This document shows, one piece after another, positions 52,678 to 60,360 of a DNA stretch of 64,000 nucleotides. Position numbers and translations under genes: made by a program. The DNA comes from Elusimicrobiota bacterium (lineage in GTDB: Bacteria > Elusimicrobiota > Elusimicrobia > Elusimicrobiales > UBA9959), in assembly GCA_016234365.1 (NCBI GenBank), contig JACRER010000032.1:1-64000 (forward strand), written 5' to 3'. The notes beneath the pieces are model-generated. The model made no database searches, was not told where the DNA came from, and saw only the letters and a list, made by a program, of their open reading frames with translations. The number at the start of each line of letters is the position of its first letter. Position 1 is the first letter of the stretch.

Positions 52678-53289
52678 TCAGAAACTGGAGAGGGGGAGGT
52701 AGCGTTCTCCGAATTTGCCGAGGTTGTAGTCGGATTTTACTATGGATGTGGGGCTTTTCATGATGCGCAGCGGGTGGACGCCCGCCTTGCGCGCCTGGAT
52801 AATGCCGGAGTCGGAGGCGCCGGCGTATAGTATGAAGCGCCGCCGCTCCAGTACCCGGTATTTCTCGTCCTCGGTGCGCGGGAACAGGAAGTAGTCCGCA
52901 AGTTTGCGCCAGGAGGCCTCGAGGCTGTCGGAGCCCTCCGGGCCGCGGTCGCAGAATACCGCGATCTTGACCCCAAGGGCTTTCAGCGTCCAGGCCGCCA
53001 GCCACGGCACGGGCTTAAGGCGTTCGTAGGCGTAGGAGCGGTTCACGCAATTCCAGTAATCGGGGGTGCCAGGGGTGGCCTTGTCCTTCTCCGCGGCCTG
53101 GAAAGCCGGCGTGGAATAGGAGAGGCCATCGTCGTATTCGAAGCCGGCCTGGAAGCCGATGAGCGAGTTTACGCTGAAGATAAAGCCCCACGCGCCAGCC
53201 AGCATGGAGAACGCCTTAAGCCGCGCGAACCAGCGCTTAAAAAAGCCCGGCGGGGGCGGCGGCGCGGGGGGGTGCTGTTGGTCGGCCAT
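52678..53289 (-). CDS. Class B acid phosphatase-like HAD protein lacking catalytic residues
   Basis: The 203-residue protein has a Pro-rich N-terminus, a hydrophobic segment (about 27-45) and a domain that follows E. coli AphA in order: GFEYDDGLSYSTPAF against AphA GFDIDDTVLFSSPGF, then YWNCVNRS, GASDSGIIQARKAGV against GDSDNDITAARDVGA, and a similar FGERYLP end. The nucleophile Asp is Glu51, the Thr of motif I is Gly55, and two acidic residues of motif IV are Ala158 and Gly162. Hydrolysis by the normal HAD route is therefore unlikely. ATG at 53289 overlaps the preceding stop. The AphA relationship is from motif comparison by eye. Confidence 0.65.
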   Translation of the reverse strand: MADQQHPPAPPPPPGFFKRWFARLKAFSMLAGAWGFIFSVNSLIGFQAGFEYDDGLSYSTPAFQAAEKDKATPGTPDYWNCVNRSYAYERLKPVPWLAAWTLKALGVKIAVFCDRGPEGSDSLEASWRKLADYFLFPRTEDEKYRVLERRRFILYAGASDSGIIQARKAGVHPLRIMKSPTSIVKSDYNLGKFGERYLPLSSF

Positions 53290-54752
53290 CAGTTCCTCGT
53301 GATCCTGCCGCCTTCCGGCCGGCCGTAGGAGCGCTCCCGGGAGAAACACCACCCCATTATTTCCCTGAGGTAGCGGCGCGAGTTGGCGAACTCCATGGCG
53401 CTGGAAAGAATAGGGTTGTCGCGCCCCCCGACGAAAGAGTCTGGCACGGCCAGGTGATAGACGTGGCCGGGGACCAGCGGGCCGCGGGTGGTCTCCACCT
53501 TCTCGAAGGCCCCGTCCTTGAAGTTCAGTTTCAGCCCGGCCACGCTTATCTCCCCGAAGGGGATGGCGCCCAGGGCCCTTTCCAGGTCCTCGCCGCGGAT
53601 CTTTACAAAAACGACGTTGGAGTCGAGAGGGAAAACTGAGTAGAGGTTGCCTACGGTCACGGTGCCGCTGGAAAAGCCAGCGGCCGTTTCCCGGCGGCCG
53701 ATGACGGCGGCGTTGGTACGGGCCCAGCGCTGCATGCAGTCGGCCGCGAAATCCGCCACGGGAGATTCGTCCTTGTCCGCCAGCGGCAGCGGGGCGGCCA
53801 GTGAGCCTATGCGGCGCGCGAAATGGGAGGAGGAGAGTTTTCGGTACCCGGCTATCACCTTTAGCACGGCTTGGTCCTGCCCGTACTTTTCCTGCAGAAG
53901 CGGCAGGCGCTCCCAGTCCAGGTCTTTCACCTTGCCGGTAGCCGGTTCCAGTTCCAGCTCGAAGCGCCCGGCGTAGAGCATTTCCAGCCCCGCAGGCGCT
54001 ATCCAGGTGCGGCCTATCTTTGCGGGCTTCTTCATCGTCGGCTCGTCGGTGATGATCAGGTCTATGCGAGGCGCCTTGGCGAGGAAATCGCGGTAGAATT
54101 CCGGTCCGGCCTTCTCTTTCGGGTTTATGCCCAGCAGCATCACTATAACGTCGGCGCCCGCGTCTTTCAGCGCTTTTACGGCCTTCTCGGTTTCGTAACT
54201 TTCCTTTTCAAGCTTGTAATTCTGCAGGTGCTTGGCCTTGTTGGGCCGGGCCGGGGCGGCTATTATCGCCGAGAAGACTCCCACTTTGCGGCGGCCCGCC
54301 TGCAGCAGCGCCGTGCTGCGCATGAAGGCCGGTTTCTTGTTGTTCTTAAGGTAGAGGTTGGAGGCCAGCAGCGGCACTTTTGACGCGTCCGCCAGCTTCT
54401 GCAGTTCCTGCGGCGTCAGCGCCAAGTCTTCCATGCCGGCGGCCGCCGCGCCGTACGGCACGGCGCCCAGGCAGTCCAGCGTGGAGCGGCCCCGCGTCAG
54501 CCAGCCTTCCGGGGTGGCCGAGAACCAGTTGCCGGTATCGAGGGCGAGTTTGGGGGCCCTTTCCGCGTCGTAGAGCTTCTTGAAAACGGCGTAGCCGCCG
54601 GCCCTGGCTCCTTTAAGCGTGGAGTCTTCGCGGGCCCACAACCGGCCCTGGCCGCGCCCTGTAGCGTAGATAACCAACTGCTCTTTTTTTGAGCAGGCGG
54701 TTGCCAGCAGCAGCAGCGCCGGGAGGGCGTGGAGGGCGCGTGGGATTTTCAT
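53289..54752 (-). CDS. Degenerate UshA paralogue, predicted catalytically inactive lipoprotein
   Basis: The 487-residue protein has a lipobox (LLATACS) and the two-domain plan of 5'-nucleotidases, ending RPEGGRITRN like its neighbour's LPEGGRITRLE. The metal-site motifs of the neighbour are lost: HTSDVHG aligns with ATGRGQG, DSGDTFQGTPEG with DTGNWFSATPEG, GNHDYD with GMEDLA, and GGHNHTG with TDEPTMK. The C-terminal substrate domain is better kept (VGNLYSVFPLDSNVVFVKI). It abuts the ushA stop with no gap. It probably binds a ligand or partner rather than hydrolysing nucleotides. Confidence 0.8.
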   Translation of the reverse strand: MKIPRALHALPALLLLATACSKKEQLVIYATGRGQGRLWAREDSTLKGARAGGYAVFKKLYDAERAPKLALDTGNWFSATPEGWLTRGRSTLDCLGAVPYGAAAAGMEDLALTPQELQKLADASKVPLLASNLYLKNNKKPAFMRSTALLQAGRRKVGVFSAIIAAPARPNKAKHLQNYKLEKESYETEKAVKALKDAGADVIVMLLGINPKEKAGPEFYRDFLAKAPRIDLIITDEPTMKKPAKIGRTWIAPAGLEMLYAGRFELELEPATGKVKDLDWERLPLLQEKYGQDQAVLKVIAGYRKLSSSHFARRIGSLAAPLPLADKDESPVADFAADCMQRWARTNAAVIGRRETAAGFSSGTVTVGNLYSVFPLDSNVVFVKIRGEDLERALGAIPFGEISVAGLKLNFKDGAFEKVETTRGPLVPGHVYHLAVPDSFVGGRDNPILSSAMEFANSRRYLREIMGWCFSRERSYGRPEGGRITRN

Positions 54753-56300
54753 CTATTCGAGCCGGGTTATCCTTCCGCCTTCGGGCAGGGTCTTCACGGG
54801 ATTCTTCTCTATGTCTTTGAGCAGCAGGTCGCGGATAGGCTGCATGGTATCTTCCGACTTCTCGGCCTCTCCGAAAACTTTGCCGCCGGTACCGCCGGTG
54901 GTGAGGTAATTGTTGGTGGCCACGGTCAATTTATCGCCGGGCTTCACTTCCGCGCCGTTGCGCTCTATCTTTATGTCCTTAGGCCCTTCCGGGGTCTGGC
55001 GGAACGTTACCTTTATGCCGGATATTTGCAGTTTTGAGAAGCCCCCGCGCAGGTTGTCGGCCATAAGCCGCGCCAACTGGTCGCCGGTCATGGTCAGTTT
55101 CACCAAGGTGTTCTCGAAAGGCATCACCTGGAAGACGTCGCGGATACGGACTTCGCCTTTGGAAAGGGACGCCCGGATGCCGGCCGTGTTCTGGAAGGCC
55201 GCGTCGGTGCCGGCCTGGCGGCGCATGGCGTCGGCGAACCAGTTGCCTATGGGTGAGTCCAGCCCGACGGTGGAAACGCCCAGGTCGAAGTCGCTGGAGC
55301 CTATTACCTTGCCCATCTCCTTGTCCACGGTGGCGCTGTAGCCCTTAAGTATCTCCAGCACGGCCGCGTCCTCGCCGGTGGTATCGGTCCAGAGCGGCAC
55401 GAGCTCGTCGGAGACGCGCGTGAGCTTGCCGGTAGTGTCGTCGAACTCCAGGGAGATCTTGGAAACATCCGTGAGGCCGTAGAAACTTTCGGCTATAAGG
55501 ACGCCGCTTTGCGGGTCGGTCCAGCCCTTGAGCAGGCCGGTGTGGTTATGCCCGCCTATCACCACGTCGGCCTTGGCGGCCCTGGCTATGGGCAGGGTGC
55601 CCCAGGCGGTCTGGGCATCGGTGAAAGTGAACGTGGAGATGTCTGATTTCCCGTAGACGTCCCCTCCAAAACCCACGTGCGCAAGGATTATGACCGCATC
55701 GGGCTTCTCCTTGGCGCGGACTTCCTGGGTCCACTTGGCCGCCTCTTCCGATTCGGAGCGGAAGTCCAGGTGTTTGACGTAGGCCGGGAAAGTGGAGGTG
55801 GCCGTGTGGCGGCCGGCTATGCCGATGACCGCTATCTTTTTACCTGCGACGTTAAGGACCGTGTAGGGAGTCAGGTAATCGGCGTGGGCGCCGGTTTCTT
55901 TTATGTATACGTTGGCGCCGAGCCAGGGGAAGGACGATTCCTTTACCATGGCCCTGAGGTTGGCCTCGGTGTAGTCGTAGTCGTGGTTGCCCACTTCGGC
56001 GGCCGAGTACTTGAGCTGGTTCATCAGCCTGACGGTGGCCATGCCCTTGGTGATGTTGCCCTCGGGCGTGCCCTGGAAGGTGTCGCCGGAGTCCAGCAGG
56101 ATGTGCGGGTTCTTGTCCGCGTTGACCAGGCTGGAGAGCGCCGCGAAGCCGCCTATGGTACGGGTGGAGTTCTGCTTGTCCCATTTGGCGGGGCGGGAGG
56201 AATACCAGCCGTGCACGTCGCTGGTGTGGTAGACGTCTATGGTCAGGGACCAGGCCGAGGCGGGCAGGGTTAAGAGTACGGCTATGATCAGCTTTTTCAT
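54753..56300 (-). CDS. ushA: UshA-type 5'-nucleotidase/UDP-sugar hydrolase
   Basis: The 515-residue protein has a signal peptide (KKLIIAVLLTLPASAWS) and all dinuclear-metal motifs: HTSDVHG (D28, H30), DSGDTFQG (D70, D73), GNHDYD (N105, H106), ILAHVG and GGHNHTG. The C-terminal nucleotide-binding domain has IGNWFADAMRRQAGTD and FPFENTL-like MPFENTLVKL. It works in the periplasm on nucleotides, UDP-sugars or related phosphoesters. It lies seven bases after the 177-residue gene and directly before its degenerate copy. Confidence 0.93.
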   Translation of the reverse strand: MKKLIIAVLLTLPASAWSLTIDVYHTSDVHGWYSSRPAKWDKQNSTRTIGGFAALSSLVNADKNPHILLDSGDTFQGTPEGNITKGMATVRLMNQLKYSAAEVGNHDYDYTEANLRAMVKESSFPWLGANVYIKETGAHADYLTPYTVLNVAGKKIAVIGIAGRHTATSTFPAYVKHLDFRSESEEAAKWTQEVRAKEKPDAVIILAHVGFGGDVYGKSDISTFTFTDAQTAWGTLPIARAAKADVVIGGHNHTGLLKGWTDPQSGVLIAESFYGLTDVSKISLEFDDTTGKLTRVSDELVPLWTDTTGEDAAVLEILKGYSATVDKEMGKVIGSSDFDLGVSTVGLDSPIGNWFADAMRRQAGTDAAFQNTAGIRASLSKGEVRIRDVFQVMPFENTLVKLTMTGDQLARLMADNLRGGFSKLQISGIKVTFRQTPEGPKDIKIERNGAEVKPGDKLTVATNNYLTTGGTGGKVFGEAEKSEDTMQPIRDLLLKDIEKNPVKTLPEGGRITRLE

Positions 56301-56307
56301 GGGGCTC

Positions 56308-56841
56308 CTATACGCGGGAAAGGGCTTCGGCGCAGCGTTCGAACGAGTCGAAAACGGCGTCGAGACCGGAGTATATACTACTAAATTTGAGATTTTGCGT
56401 GAATTCGCCGGAGTCCCGGTCCGCGGCCGCTTTGGCCTGGGCCAGGACCTTGCGGCCGGAGGCGCACAGGGCCAGTTCCTCGCGCAGGGCTTCTTTGCCG
56501 GCGTCGTCCGCCAGCAGGCGCGGGGCTATGGCGCAGGCCCGCTGCAGGAAGGCGAGCGCCTGCGCCATAGCGTCCGGGCGCACCCCGTGCAGTTCCATGT
56601 CCGTGAAGACCTTCTCTAGCCTCGCCGTAAAATCCTCCGCGGCGTACAGGGCCGCGCCGGCGCCAGGGCGTTTGCCCCGGGAGGCGCGGGCCTTGGCCAG
56701 CGCCTTGCGCAGCGGGGTAAAGAACTCCCCGGCCATTTCCGGGTGCGCGGTCAGGTCGCCCAGGGCGGGGCCCGAGCGGTCCAGCGCCGCCAGCGCGGCG
56801 CGGATCCTGGTGTCGGTAAGGGCCAGCCAGAGTCTTCGCAT
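56308..56841 (-). CDS. Helical cytoplasmic protein of unknown function
   Basis: The 177-residue protein is almost wholly alpha-helical and rich in Ala, Arg, Leu and Glu, without signal peptide or membrane segment. Four cysteines are scattered (RACAIAP, ALCASG, ERCAEAL). I recognise no domain. It is the first gene of the ushA unit and has its own promoter 7 bases before the ATG, without a Shine-Dalgarno. Confidence 0.65.
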   Translation of the reverse strand: MRRLWLALTDTRIRAALAALDRSGPALGDLTAHPEMAGEFFTPLRKALAKARASRGKRPGAGAALYAAEDFTARLEKVFTDMELHGVRPDAMAQALAFLQRACAIAPRLLADDAGKEALREELALCASGRKVLAQAKAAADRDSGEFTQNLKFSSIYSGLDAVFDSFERCAEALSRV

Positions 56842-57844: not shown

Positions 57845-58300
57845 TCAGGGATAGGCGATAAAGCGGGCTTCTACGCGGAGTTTGGCGGGGCCGCCAAAAG
57901 AGTAAACCGTGAAAGTGGAGAGTTCTATCAGCGCGTCCTGGCAGTCCTGGTGGCTGGAGCCCGAGGTCGGGTCCATCCGCTCGGGGTTGGTGATGTAAAC
58001 GGGCCTGGTGTCGTCCCCTTTGTAAAAGGAACGGCCCGTGCCGGATTTGCGCAGGCACCAGAGGGCCGGCTTGCCCAGCGCCGCCGCAGGGGACGCCAGG
58101 GCGGACTCGTAGGTGAGTCCCAGCTCTTTGGCCTGTTTAAGGCTGGCCGCGTAGGCGGCCTTCTGCCCCATGCGGGTCCTCAGGCCGGAGGCCGCGCCCT
58201 GCATATGCGCGGAAAGCATAATGAGCAGCGGGGTGATGACCACGCAGGCCAGCAGCAGCGCCAGTATGTTTTTTAAATGTCCGGACATAGGAACGTTCAT
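57845..58300 (-). CDS. One-TM secreted or anchored protein of unknown function
   Basis: The 151-residue product begins at ATG 58300, overlapping the stop of the TPR gene; an open upstream extension is antisense-like and rejected. A hydrophobic segment (about 11-30, ILALLLACVVITPLLIMLSA) near the N-terminus is followed by a soluble domain with two cysteines (LWCLRK, HQDCQD). The N-terminal layout is pilin-like, but no prepilin cleavage motif is clear. Function is unknown. Confidence 0.65.
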   Translation of the reverse strand: MNVPMSGHLKNILALLLACVVITPLLIMLSAHMQGAASGLRTRMGQKAAYAASLKQAKELGLTYESALASPAAALGKPALWCLRKSGTGRSFYKGDDTRPVYITNPERMDPTSGSSHQDCQDALIELSTFTVYSFGGPAKLRVEARFIAYP

Positions 58301-60360
58301 GGGCGGCCTGCCGCGCGAACGGGGTCGTAGGTGCTCTTCAGCGGAGTCGGGTTCGAACTGTCGCAGGGATTGTCCTCCGTGCCTACGTTGCCGATCCAGA
58401 CTTCCCCGTTCTCGCAGAAATGCCGGCCCTTGGCTCCGCTGCCAAAAAAAGAAGAATGGGTCTCGTTCGCAAGGAATTGCTCCGCGTTGTTGCTGCGGTA
58501 CGCCGCGATATATAACGGGAGCTTCCCTATACATTCGTTCATGCATAACCCCGTATCTCTCGAGCAGAGCAGGTAGCGCTGCCTGACCCCGTCGTTGAGT
58601 TCCTTTACGGCATGGATGCGCTCGCTTTTCAGCGTGGTCTGGGGGCAGCGCGTCGCTTTCAGGAGCCAGAGGTATTCCGGTTCGGAGATCTCCTCGTAGC
58701 CCTGTTTGACGAACGTGTCGATCTGTGCTTGCGCTTCTTTCGAGGCCTGCGCCAGCGCGCTGTCGGGAACCGGCTCATAAGGCAGGAGCCAGGACTTCGT
58801 CCCTTTCTGCGAACCGCGCCAGAGCTCTTCGCCTTCCCGGGTAAGTTTCCCTGACTTGTCAAAAACCTGCGCTCCAGATCCCGTGCGGAGCTGGAATATC
58901 TCGCGCAGGCCCACGCCTTCGCCTTCGAAGAATTTTACCGCGTCCTTAGTGGCGTAGAAAACGTAGGCTTTATAGCCGGCCGCGGTCAGGGCCAACTTCG
59001 CCGCTCCGCCTTCGCTGCGTTGTACGATAAGGCCTTTAGCCGCGCGGTCCTTGCCCCGGACATAGTCCACGCCGCCGGCGGTTTCCGCCGCGCGGATGGC
59101 CTTGAAAAGAGCCAGGTCTTCCGGCAGGGCCTCGGTGCGGGTTTCCGGCACGGCCTGCCTCAGGCGCAGTTCTTCCAATACCTGCGGGCCGGTAAGCGAA
59201 CCTGTGCGCAGTTCCTCGCGGCGTTTTTTCGAGTTCGCGTCGGCCGGGTCCAGGCCGAGGATCAGTTCGTAGGTGGCCTCGGCGCCTTTCAGGTCGGCGC
59301 GGGCCTCCTGGGCGGCGGCCAGGCCCTTCAGGGCGTTCAGGTCGCGCGGGCTGGCCTCGATGGCTTTGCGGTAGCGGGCTTCCGCCTTTGCCGGGTCACC
59401 CAGTTTAAGCCAGGTTTCGGCGGCCTTTCCAAGGCAGAAGGCGGCCATGGGGCCGTTATCCTTATAGAGAGCCGCGGCCCTCTCATATTCTTTCACCCCG
59501 TCCTCGTAGCGGCCCAGCCGCACCAGCAGCGGCCCGCGTCCCGCCGCAAGCCCGGCGTCGGCCGGGGATAATTTCAGGCAGGCGTCGCTTTGCGCCAGGG
59601 CGGCTGCGGGGGTGTCCGCCGCGGAGGCGGCTTTGAATTTTTCCAGGCAGGCGGCCGCGGCCACCGGGGCCGCTGCGGGCGCGGCTGGCGCCGGGGTTAC
59701 CTTTTTCTTCGCCTGGGTCTTCCGTTTGTCGGCGGCGGCCCGGCCGGAGCGTCTAAGCCCGCCGTTAGCCAGGGCGCGGTAGTACTGCGCGTCGGGCCCG
59801 GTTGCCCGGCCGGCCAGTTCCGACGCCCGGCGGTAATGAGCGGCGGCGCGCCCGGCGTCGCCGTGCGCCTCCAGCAGGCGGGCCAGGTCGTAGCGGGCCC
59901 GGTAACTGGAAGAGGCCAGTTCCACGCCCTGCTCCAGGGTTTCCTCGGCTTTTCGCGGATCGCCGGAGGCGGCGTAGGAGAGGCCAAGTTCCCGGTAGGC
60001 CGGGTAGGCGGTAGGGTCCAGTTCCATCGCCCTGCGGCAGTTGGAAACGGCTTCCTGCGCCCGGGCGGAACAGCGCAGCGCTTTGCACAGGGCGAGGTAG
60101 GCGGCGTAATCGGACTTGTCGTTAGCCAGGCGCGCGCGGGCGGCGGCTTCGAGTTCTTCTGAGTAGGGGGAGCGGCCTTCCGGCGTCAGTTCCACGGCCC
60201 GCAGCAGCAGCGCGGCGTCGGTGGGGGATCTCTTCAGCTGCGCGAAAGCGGCCCCGACAGAGAGTTCCGCCCCGGCGGTCGGCGCCTTTTCGGCGGCAGA
60301 GAGCGGGGCCAGCGCGGCTGCCAGCAGGGCGGCGCCCCGCAGCAACTGGGAGGTCTTCAC
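58297..60360 (-). CDS. Secreted TPR protein with unrecognised Cys-rich C-terminal domain
   Basis: The 687-residue protein has a signal peptide ([19 protein letters not shown]) and TPR repeats at about 60-200 ([20 protein letters not shown]) and 260-385 ([20 protein letters not shown]), separated by a Lys/Pro/Ala linker. The last 270 residues form a domain I cannot assign, with several cysteines ([24 protein letters not shown]). It overlaps dcd and the one-TM gene by four bases each, so the two unknown proteins are probably made together and act in the periplasm. Confidence 0.78.

Follow-up and report, generated by a model that had tools for sequence, protein, structure and literature searches.

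Results

A three-gene cassette of phosphatase-like proteins

We analysed a cluster of phosphatase-like genes in the genome of an Elusimicrobiota bacterium, found in a stretch of 64,000 nucleotides (the window; positions 1 to 64,000, forward strand, of contig JACRER010000032.1, assembly GCA_016234365.1). The cassette consists of ushA, ushB and aphA', all on the minus strand, as is a 177-amino acid (aa) open reading frame (ORF) upstream of them. The three genes are adjacent and free of gaps, as the initial annotation of this DNA, made from the sequence alone, had described: the stop codon of ushA (54753-54755) abuts the ATG of ushB (54752), and the stop of ushB shares one base with the ATG of aphA' (TGATG at 53289). 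The features are:

54753..56300, minus strand: ushA, intact periplasmic UshA-type 5'-nucleotidase by Pfam and motifs, 515 aa, with a signal peptide
53289..54752, minus strand: ushB, pseudo-UshA lipoprotein, 487 aa, with an invariant Cys20 but neither metal ligands nor nucleotide-stacking aromatics
52678..53289, minus strand: aphA', pseudo class B acid phosphatase, 203 aa, E51 at the nucleophile position, motif IV GASDSG
53140..53214, minus strand: residues 26-50 of aphA', covering the hydrophobic helix and first strand, where conservation within the cassette is highest
56308..56841, minus strand: 177-aa ORF next to ushA on its upstream side, probably encoding a diverged PhoU_div/DUF47 (PhoU-like) protein

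Below, f1 denotes the window's family, f2 its sister family, and f5, f7, f8, f16, f18 and f22 other families of Elusimicrobiota; g22, g23, g25, g28 and g42 are genera related to the window's genus and are assigned to f7.

The ushA product carries all motifs of the UshA/5'-nucleotidase family (PF00149 and PF02872; E. coli UshA, Haemophilus NadN, human CD73). Both Pfam domains are found (5_nucleotid_C at 2.9e-32, Metallophos at 3.2e-12), the dimetal motifs (DxH, GDxxxG, GNH[DE], H, GHxH) are complete, and the substrate motifs GIR/PFEN/NNYLTTGG are present, in agreement with the initial view of the gene as intact. In the class, UshA from four further families is likewise intact. Outside the window, the same genome encodes another full-length UshA paralogue, which shares about 50% identity with ushA (G000:C34, locus L085:5804-7393).

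Compared with ushA, every metal motif of ushB has been replaced: HTSDVHG by ATGRGQG, DSGD by DTGN, GNHD by GMED, HVG by GIN (the H217 equivalent) and, as taken from the translations, GGHNHTG by TDEPTMK. The general loss, with three of these replacements (of HTSDVHG, GNHD and GGHNHTG), had been noticed before, and the comparison across orthologues extends it, as every ushB orthologue, including those of f2, is degenerate at all metal motifs. Pfam recognizes 5_nucleotid_C in ushB (3.1e-12) and in 27 of 27 UshB rows, and detects Metallophos neither in ushB nor in any of these rows, in all of which the lipobox cysteine (C20) is invariant. An AlphaFold2 (AF2) model built with the window and locus alignments has a predicted local distance difference test score (pLDDT) of 89.7, and its best Foldseek matches are 5'-nucleotidases of the UshA/CD73/NadN type (E down to 3e-35), showing the UshA fold and common descent. 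UshB, a probable lipoprotein, thus shares the two-domain fold and the 5_nucleotid_C domain of the UshA family but lacks its metal ligands and, in the window's genus, the GIR arginine and the stacking aromatics. There the C-terminal substrate motifs have changed from GIR to ETA-like, from PFENT to PLDSS and from NNYLTTGG to PDSFVG-G; some C-terminal nucleotide-binding motifs are still present in f2 UshB. Since the substrate arginine and stacking aromatics are missing, the canonical UshB pocket in the window's genus is unlikely, judging by its residues, to bind nucleotides in the known way.

A Pfam search with aphA' gave no match. NCBIfam TIGR01672 was found at 4e-9, far under the family cut-off, and AphA sequences of the PDB at 4e-5. 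The AF2 model (pLDDT 93.1) retrieved AphA crystal structures as all of its 13 best Foldseek matches (E down to 3e-10), which, together with an unbroken series of sequences leading to intact AphA, establishes the fold and common descent. Motif I is FEYDDG in place of FDxDDT, the nucleophile Asp being replaced by Glu (E51) in 43 of 43 f1 rows, and motif IV is GASDSG in place of GDSDSD. The protein is therefore the AphA-like HAD protein with an Asp-to-Glu nucleophile that had been proposed, whereas the accompanying claim that the motif IV acids are gone holds only for two of the three: these are lost in f1 together with the motif II Thr, but the middle Asp (D160) is invariant. Relative to class B acid phosphatase AphA (TIGR01672; E. 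coli/Salmonella), aphA' keeps the second Asp of motif I (D53), the motif III Lys, the motif II Arg and the F56 and W77 equivalents, and differs in the residues just listed and in an N-terminal transmembrane (TM) helix that abuts the core. This single predicted helix (residues 16-44) runs directly into the HAD core, where beta-1 (47-51) carries E51. Mean pairwise identity is 0.93 over residues 26-50, versus 0.73 for the whole protein; W34 is also present in most active relatives. Misalignment of the active site was ruled out, as intact relatives align with aphA' without gaps at motifs I and IV.

Profile searches thus place ushA, ushB (by 5_nucleotid_C) and aphA' (as a sub-threshold AphA) as first claimed, and the structure models give the UshA and AphA folds that were expected to be retained, with no suggestion of another enzyme fold or of a different, intact active site. 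Motif loss, Foldseek folds and abutting genes together bear out the central observation, that a single tight operon contains pseudoenzymes derived from two unrelated phosphatase folds.

Conservation and selection

Both degenerate genes are present in 27 of 32 genomes of the window's genus, that is, in 27/27 of those having the locus. In the remaining five (G010, G012, G020, G021 and G027; two of them 94-95% complete) neither rpsI nor any part of the locus was found; because the neighbouring rpsI is absent too, the locus is probably missing from these assemblies through an assembly or binning gap around the region. The f1 order rplM-rpsI-PhoU_div-like-ushA-ushB-aphA'-HIT-dnaG-rpoD, and with it the three-gene order reported earlier, recurs throughout the genus and in most other f1 genera, apart from a few insertions and contig breaks. 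In f2, aphA is absent, and the pseudo-ushB gene lies in an iscU-iscS-ushA-ushA-ushB-dus locus or a shorter version of it.

Pairwise dN/dS (ratio of nonsynonymous to synonymous substitution rates; Nei-Gojobori) within the genus was 0.03-0.25 for aphA', 0.11-0.34 for ushB, 0.12-0.31 for ushA and 0.06-0.14 for the HIT control, and in most pairs aphA' was at or below the adjacent intact ushA. In f7 and f8, pairs of inactive AphA gave 0.04-0.34, active pairs 0.11-0.29 and the ushA genes beside them 0.17-0.48. Constraint is about equal on inactive and active copies. The suggestion that selection maintains the degenerate genes is thereby upheld, since dN/dS lay far under 1 in all lineages tested. Simple gene decay after the need was lost could account for the lost catalytic residues and for intermediate motifs among relatives; conservation in 27/27 loci, open frames in close relatives and the dN/dS values rule it out, and we give it next to no credence. 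Nor are the degenerate motifs due to chance, because the same kinds of loss are seen in all orthologues of the family.

Several neighbouring features were recorded along the way. A tetratricopeptide (TPR)-repeat ORF at 58297-60360 (minus strand), upstream of rplM, has the same position in most f1 genomes. Some relatives (L068, L069, L076) have an extra gene of 570-690 aa immediately after aphA', before or instead of HIT. The f2 loci L082, L083 and L084 contain one or two ushA and the pseudo-ushB, then a probable dus (tRNA-dihydrouridine synthase); iscU-iscS-like genes lie upstream in L083 and L084, and rplM-rpsI about 1.5 kb past ushB in L083.

Evolution of the two pseudoenzymes

Complete class B motifs I and IV (FDxDDT/GDSDSD) are found in the same gene of f5, f8, f16, f18, f22 and much of f7, and within the class intact AphA mostly sits right after ushA. 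The f16/f18 AphA proteins that were tested score 121-131 bits to TIGR01672 and exceed the Pfam Acid_phosphat_B cut-off, which fixes the AphA ancestry of aphA'. In f16/f18 (L172, L174) the gene stands alone, without ushA next to it, and encodes a probable lipoprotein whose active site is intact.

On a tree of AphA computed without the motif columns, the distribution of active and inactive proteins requires at least four changes. The lineages that lost the nucleophile are f1 (Glu), f7-g23 (Glu), f7-g22/g28/g42 (Gly, Gly and Glu) and part of f7-g25 (Gly, Ala, Cys, Thr). As reconstructed from this tree, there were at least four losses of the nucleophile, and purifying selection continued throughout. 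The tree and its bootstraps give three origins of Glu, and three separate origins of the Glu-type AphA are likely. A single clade of all Glu-type proteins is contrary to tree and bootstraps, yet the approximately unbiased (AU) test does not reject it and is compatible with a single origin (p 0.099).

Nearly all inactive AphA sequences retain D53, W79, N83, R115 and D160, and mostly F63, with E, G, A, C or T at the nucleophile position (the Asp entries at position 51 in the f1 column of the residue-retention table come from five f16/f18 rows that it includes). A further possibility is that the sites have been re-purposed and that a different reaction is catalysed, in AphA' by E51/D53/D160/K143 or in UshB by a new site. 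Glu stands at the nucleophile position in every f1 member and probably arose in three lineages, and K143 is nearly invariant in f1. However, the G, A, C or T found elsewhere under similar constraint means that this side chain is no conserved catalyst, f1 lacks the motif II Thr as well as two of the three acids of motif IV, and UshB has lost all metal ligands with no conserved substitute cluster seen. We therefore regard a new catalytic activity as very unlikely.

In the UshA tree, f1 and f2 UshB group together against all intact UshA (support 99), consistent with a single origin of UshB no later than the f1/f2 common ancestor; long branches leave the depth of this origin uncertain. A joint origin of the two pseudoenzymes was rejected, as UshB also occurs in f2, where AphA is lacking, and some operons without UshB contain inactive AphA. 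The two thus arose separately, because UshB predates f1 and AphA lost its nucleophile in lineages without an operon UshB; the loci of f5, f7 and f8 contain no UshB. The most parsimonious history would start from a PhoU_div-UshA-AphA operon for the use of external nucleotides and phosphate in the ancestor of the class. Duplication of ushA would have given rise to ushB, with catalysis lost no later than the f1/f2 ancestor, and AphA would have lost catalysis repeatedly without the protein itself disappearing.

The gene upstream of ushA

The initial annotation described a cassette of three genes; these are confirmed, but a conserved upstream gene had been overlooked. Pfam, PF01865 included, gave no match for the window's 177-aa ORF. 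Its positional counterparts occur across much of the class, and those upstream of ushA in f5 and f8 are clear members of PhoU_div/DUF47 (PF01865, at 4e-16 to 6e-21). Iterative searches and profile comparisons connect the two: hhalign aligned the f7 counterparts with canonical PhoU_div at 1.4e-19 and the f1 proteins with those of f7 at 3e-8. The window's ORF is thus probably a PhoU_div/DUF47 protein that has diverged beyond recognition by Pfam. In g22 and g42 the PhoU_div-like gene directly precedes aphA', with no ushA between them. Recognizable PhoU_div copies are present elsewhere in the window's genome, and the copy in the operon would therefore be an additional, specialized one.

Discussion

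Intact AphA ancestry, loss of catalytic residues, retention of the fold, a tight operon and purifying selection are directly supported by the above results. The degenerate pair almost certainly does another job in the cell envelope. In the interpretation that we favour, to which we give about an even chance, UshB and AphA' are maintained non-catalytic envelope components of a nucleotide- and phosphate-scavenging module, in which UshA is the sole remaining enzyme in f1. The cassette would be what an old envelope operon of Elusimicrobiota, PhoU_div-like protein-UshA-AphA, has become in Elusimicrobiales; outside the inner membrane, that operon would release nucleosides and phosphate from nucleotides. 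Lipid-anchored UshB would be a subunit of UshA with a docking or allosteric function, probably exerted via its C-terminal domain. AphA', hung on one inner-membrane helix, would have a ligand-binding or docking role that is independent of UshA and in which the near-invariant helix matters; fold, pocket residues and TM helix have all been retained, which points to binding, docking or sensing at the inner membrane. UshB would more probably act on UshA itself.

Several observations weigh against this interpretation. Four genomes of g28 and g42 (86-95% complete) contain no UshA-family (PF02872) protein and still keep pseudo-AphA; the same search was positive in other genomes and in controls. In g28 no PhoU_div-like gene was detected beside aphA' either, so that with the UshA-family genes absent from both genera no partner is obligatory. 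Direct comparison of the f1 upstream protein with canonical PhoU_div reached only 6e-5 in hhalign (probability 66%).

The same genomes bear on the proposal that the AphA-like protein is a binding or regulatory partner of UshA. As worded, this is unsupported, since four UshA-less genomes of two genera keep pseudo-AphA, and an obligatory partnership is ruled out at least for g28 and g42, whose assemblies encode no PF02872 protein. In g22, ushA is elsewhere in the genome, away from aphA'. The dN/dS of aphA' was 0.036-0.046 in g22 and 0.075 in g42 (of g28 and g42, computed in g42 only). Since AphA' is kept and constrained without UshA, its role in these lineages does not depend on UshA, and by extension the same may hold everywhere. 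A mirror-tree test of rate co-variation was also made; the ushA distances did not follow the genome background, probably reflecting a mis-assigned ushA in at least one genome.

AphA' might instead be an envelope sensor, whose dead HAD pocket binds phosphate or a nucleotide or nucleoside and whose rigidly attached TM helix signals inward, possibly to the PhoU_div-like protein, with UshA and UshB providing or shaping the pool of ligands. The helix joins the strand that bears E51 and is the most conserved stretch of the protein, the inactive f7 lineages keep the five residues D53, W79, N83, R115 and D160 with one exception at D160, and the PhoU_div-like gene adjoins aphA' even where ushA has left the locus (g22, g42). 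However, the cytoplasmic part of AphA' is only about 15-25 residues long, without an output domain, g28 has no adjacent PhoU_div-like gene, and the f1 sequence has lost the equivalent of Tyr193 in the nucleoside pocket of AphA. On balance we consider the sensor unlikely. A somewhat poorer prospect still is that both proteins are scaffolds holding UshA at the membrane or membranes, UshB as a lipoprotein hetero-dimer partner and AphA' as an inner-membrane anchor near a nucleoside or phosphate transporter. This would suit a soluble UshA encoded beside two membrane-attached proteins by abutting or overlapping genes, which suggest translational coupling, and a UshB in which 5_nucleotid_C rather than Metallophos remains recognizable. 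Against it, AphA' persists without any UshA in g28 and g42, active AphA of relatives has the same anchor, which is thus no innovation of the pseudoenzyme, and f5, f7 and f8 manage without UshB.

A broader possibility, which we put forward tentatively and with less confidence than our favoured interpretation, is a repeated conversion of enzyme to receptor: an anchored class B acid phosphatase, encoded in one operon with UshA and a PhoU-like protein, may have become a periplasmic phosphate or nucleotide sensor or an assembly subunit, with at least four losses in one phylum and with pocket and TM helix kept, acting in Elusimicrobiales with an independently derived lipoprotein pseudo-UshA.

In Haemophilus, the UshA-family enzyme NadN and the AphA/HAD phosphatases AphA and Hel (eP4) jointly convert nucleotides to nucleosides in the periplasm (PMC10694654). 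All three are active there, whereas here apparently only UshA is; by analogy, the trio is a likely model for the ancestral ushA-aphA job in the phylum. Pseudophosphatases such as STYX, MK-STYX, PTPRU and PHLPP2 (PMC7320164, PMC12002173) have in common with the present proteins a conserved fold, lost catalytic residues and maintenance by selection. They are, however, eukaryotic protein phosphatases, none of the UshA or class B HAD fold and none in a bacterial operon with an active relative. A limited full-text search of the open literature, with subscription papers outside its scope, found no pseudoenzyme of either fold and no such system; the arrangement had been called unusual and without a described parallel, and we agree with the first and found nothing against the second. 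New here are the repeated loss of the AphA nucleophile, the loss of UshB ligands common to the sister family, the PhoU_div-like upstream gene, and pseudo-AphA in genomes without the UshA family.

Annotation by homology could label these genes 5'-nucleotidase or acid phosphatase and so inflate the predicted use of organophosphates in Elusimicrobiota. With the same phosphatase inactivated several times and apparently active sister lineages extant, the phylum offers a natural experiment on why dead enzymes are kept.

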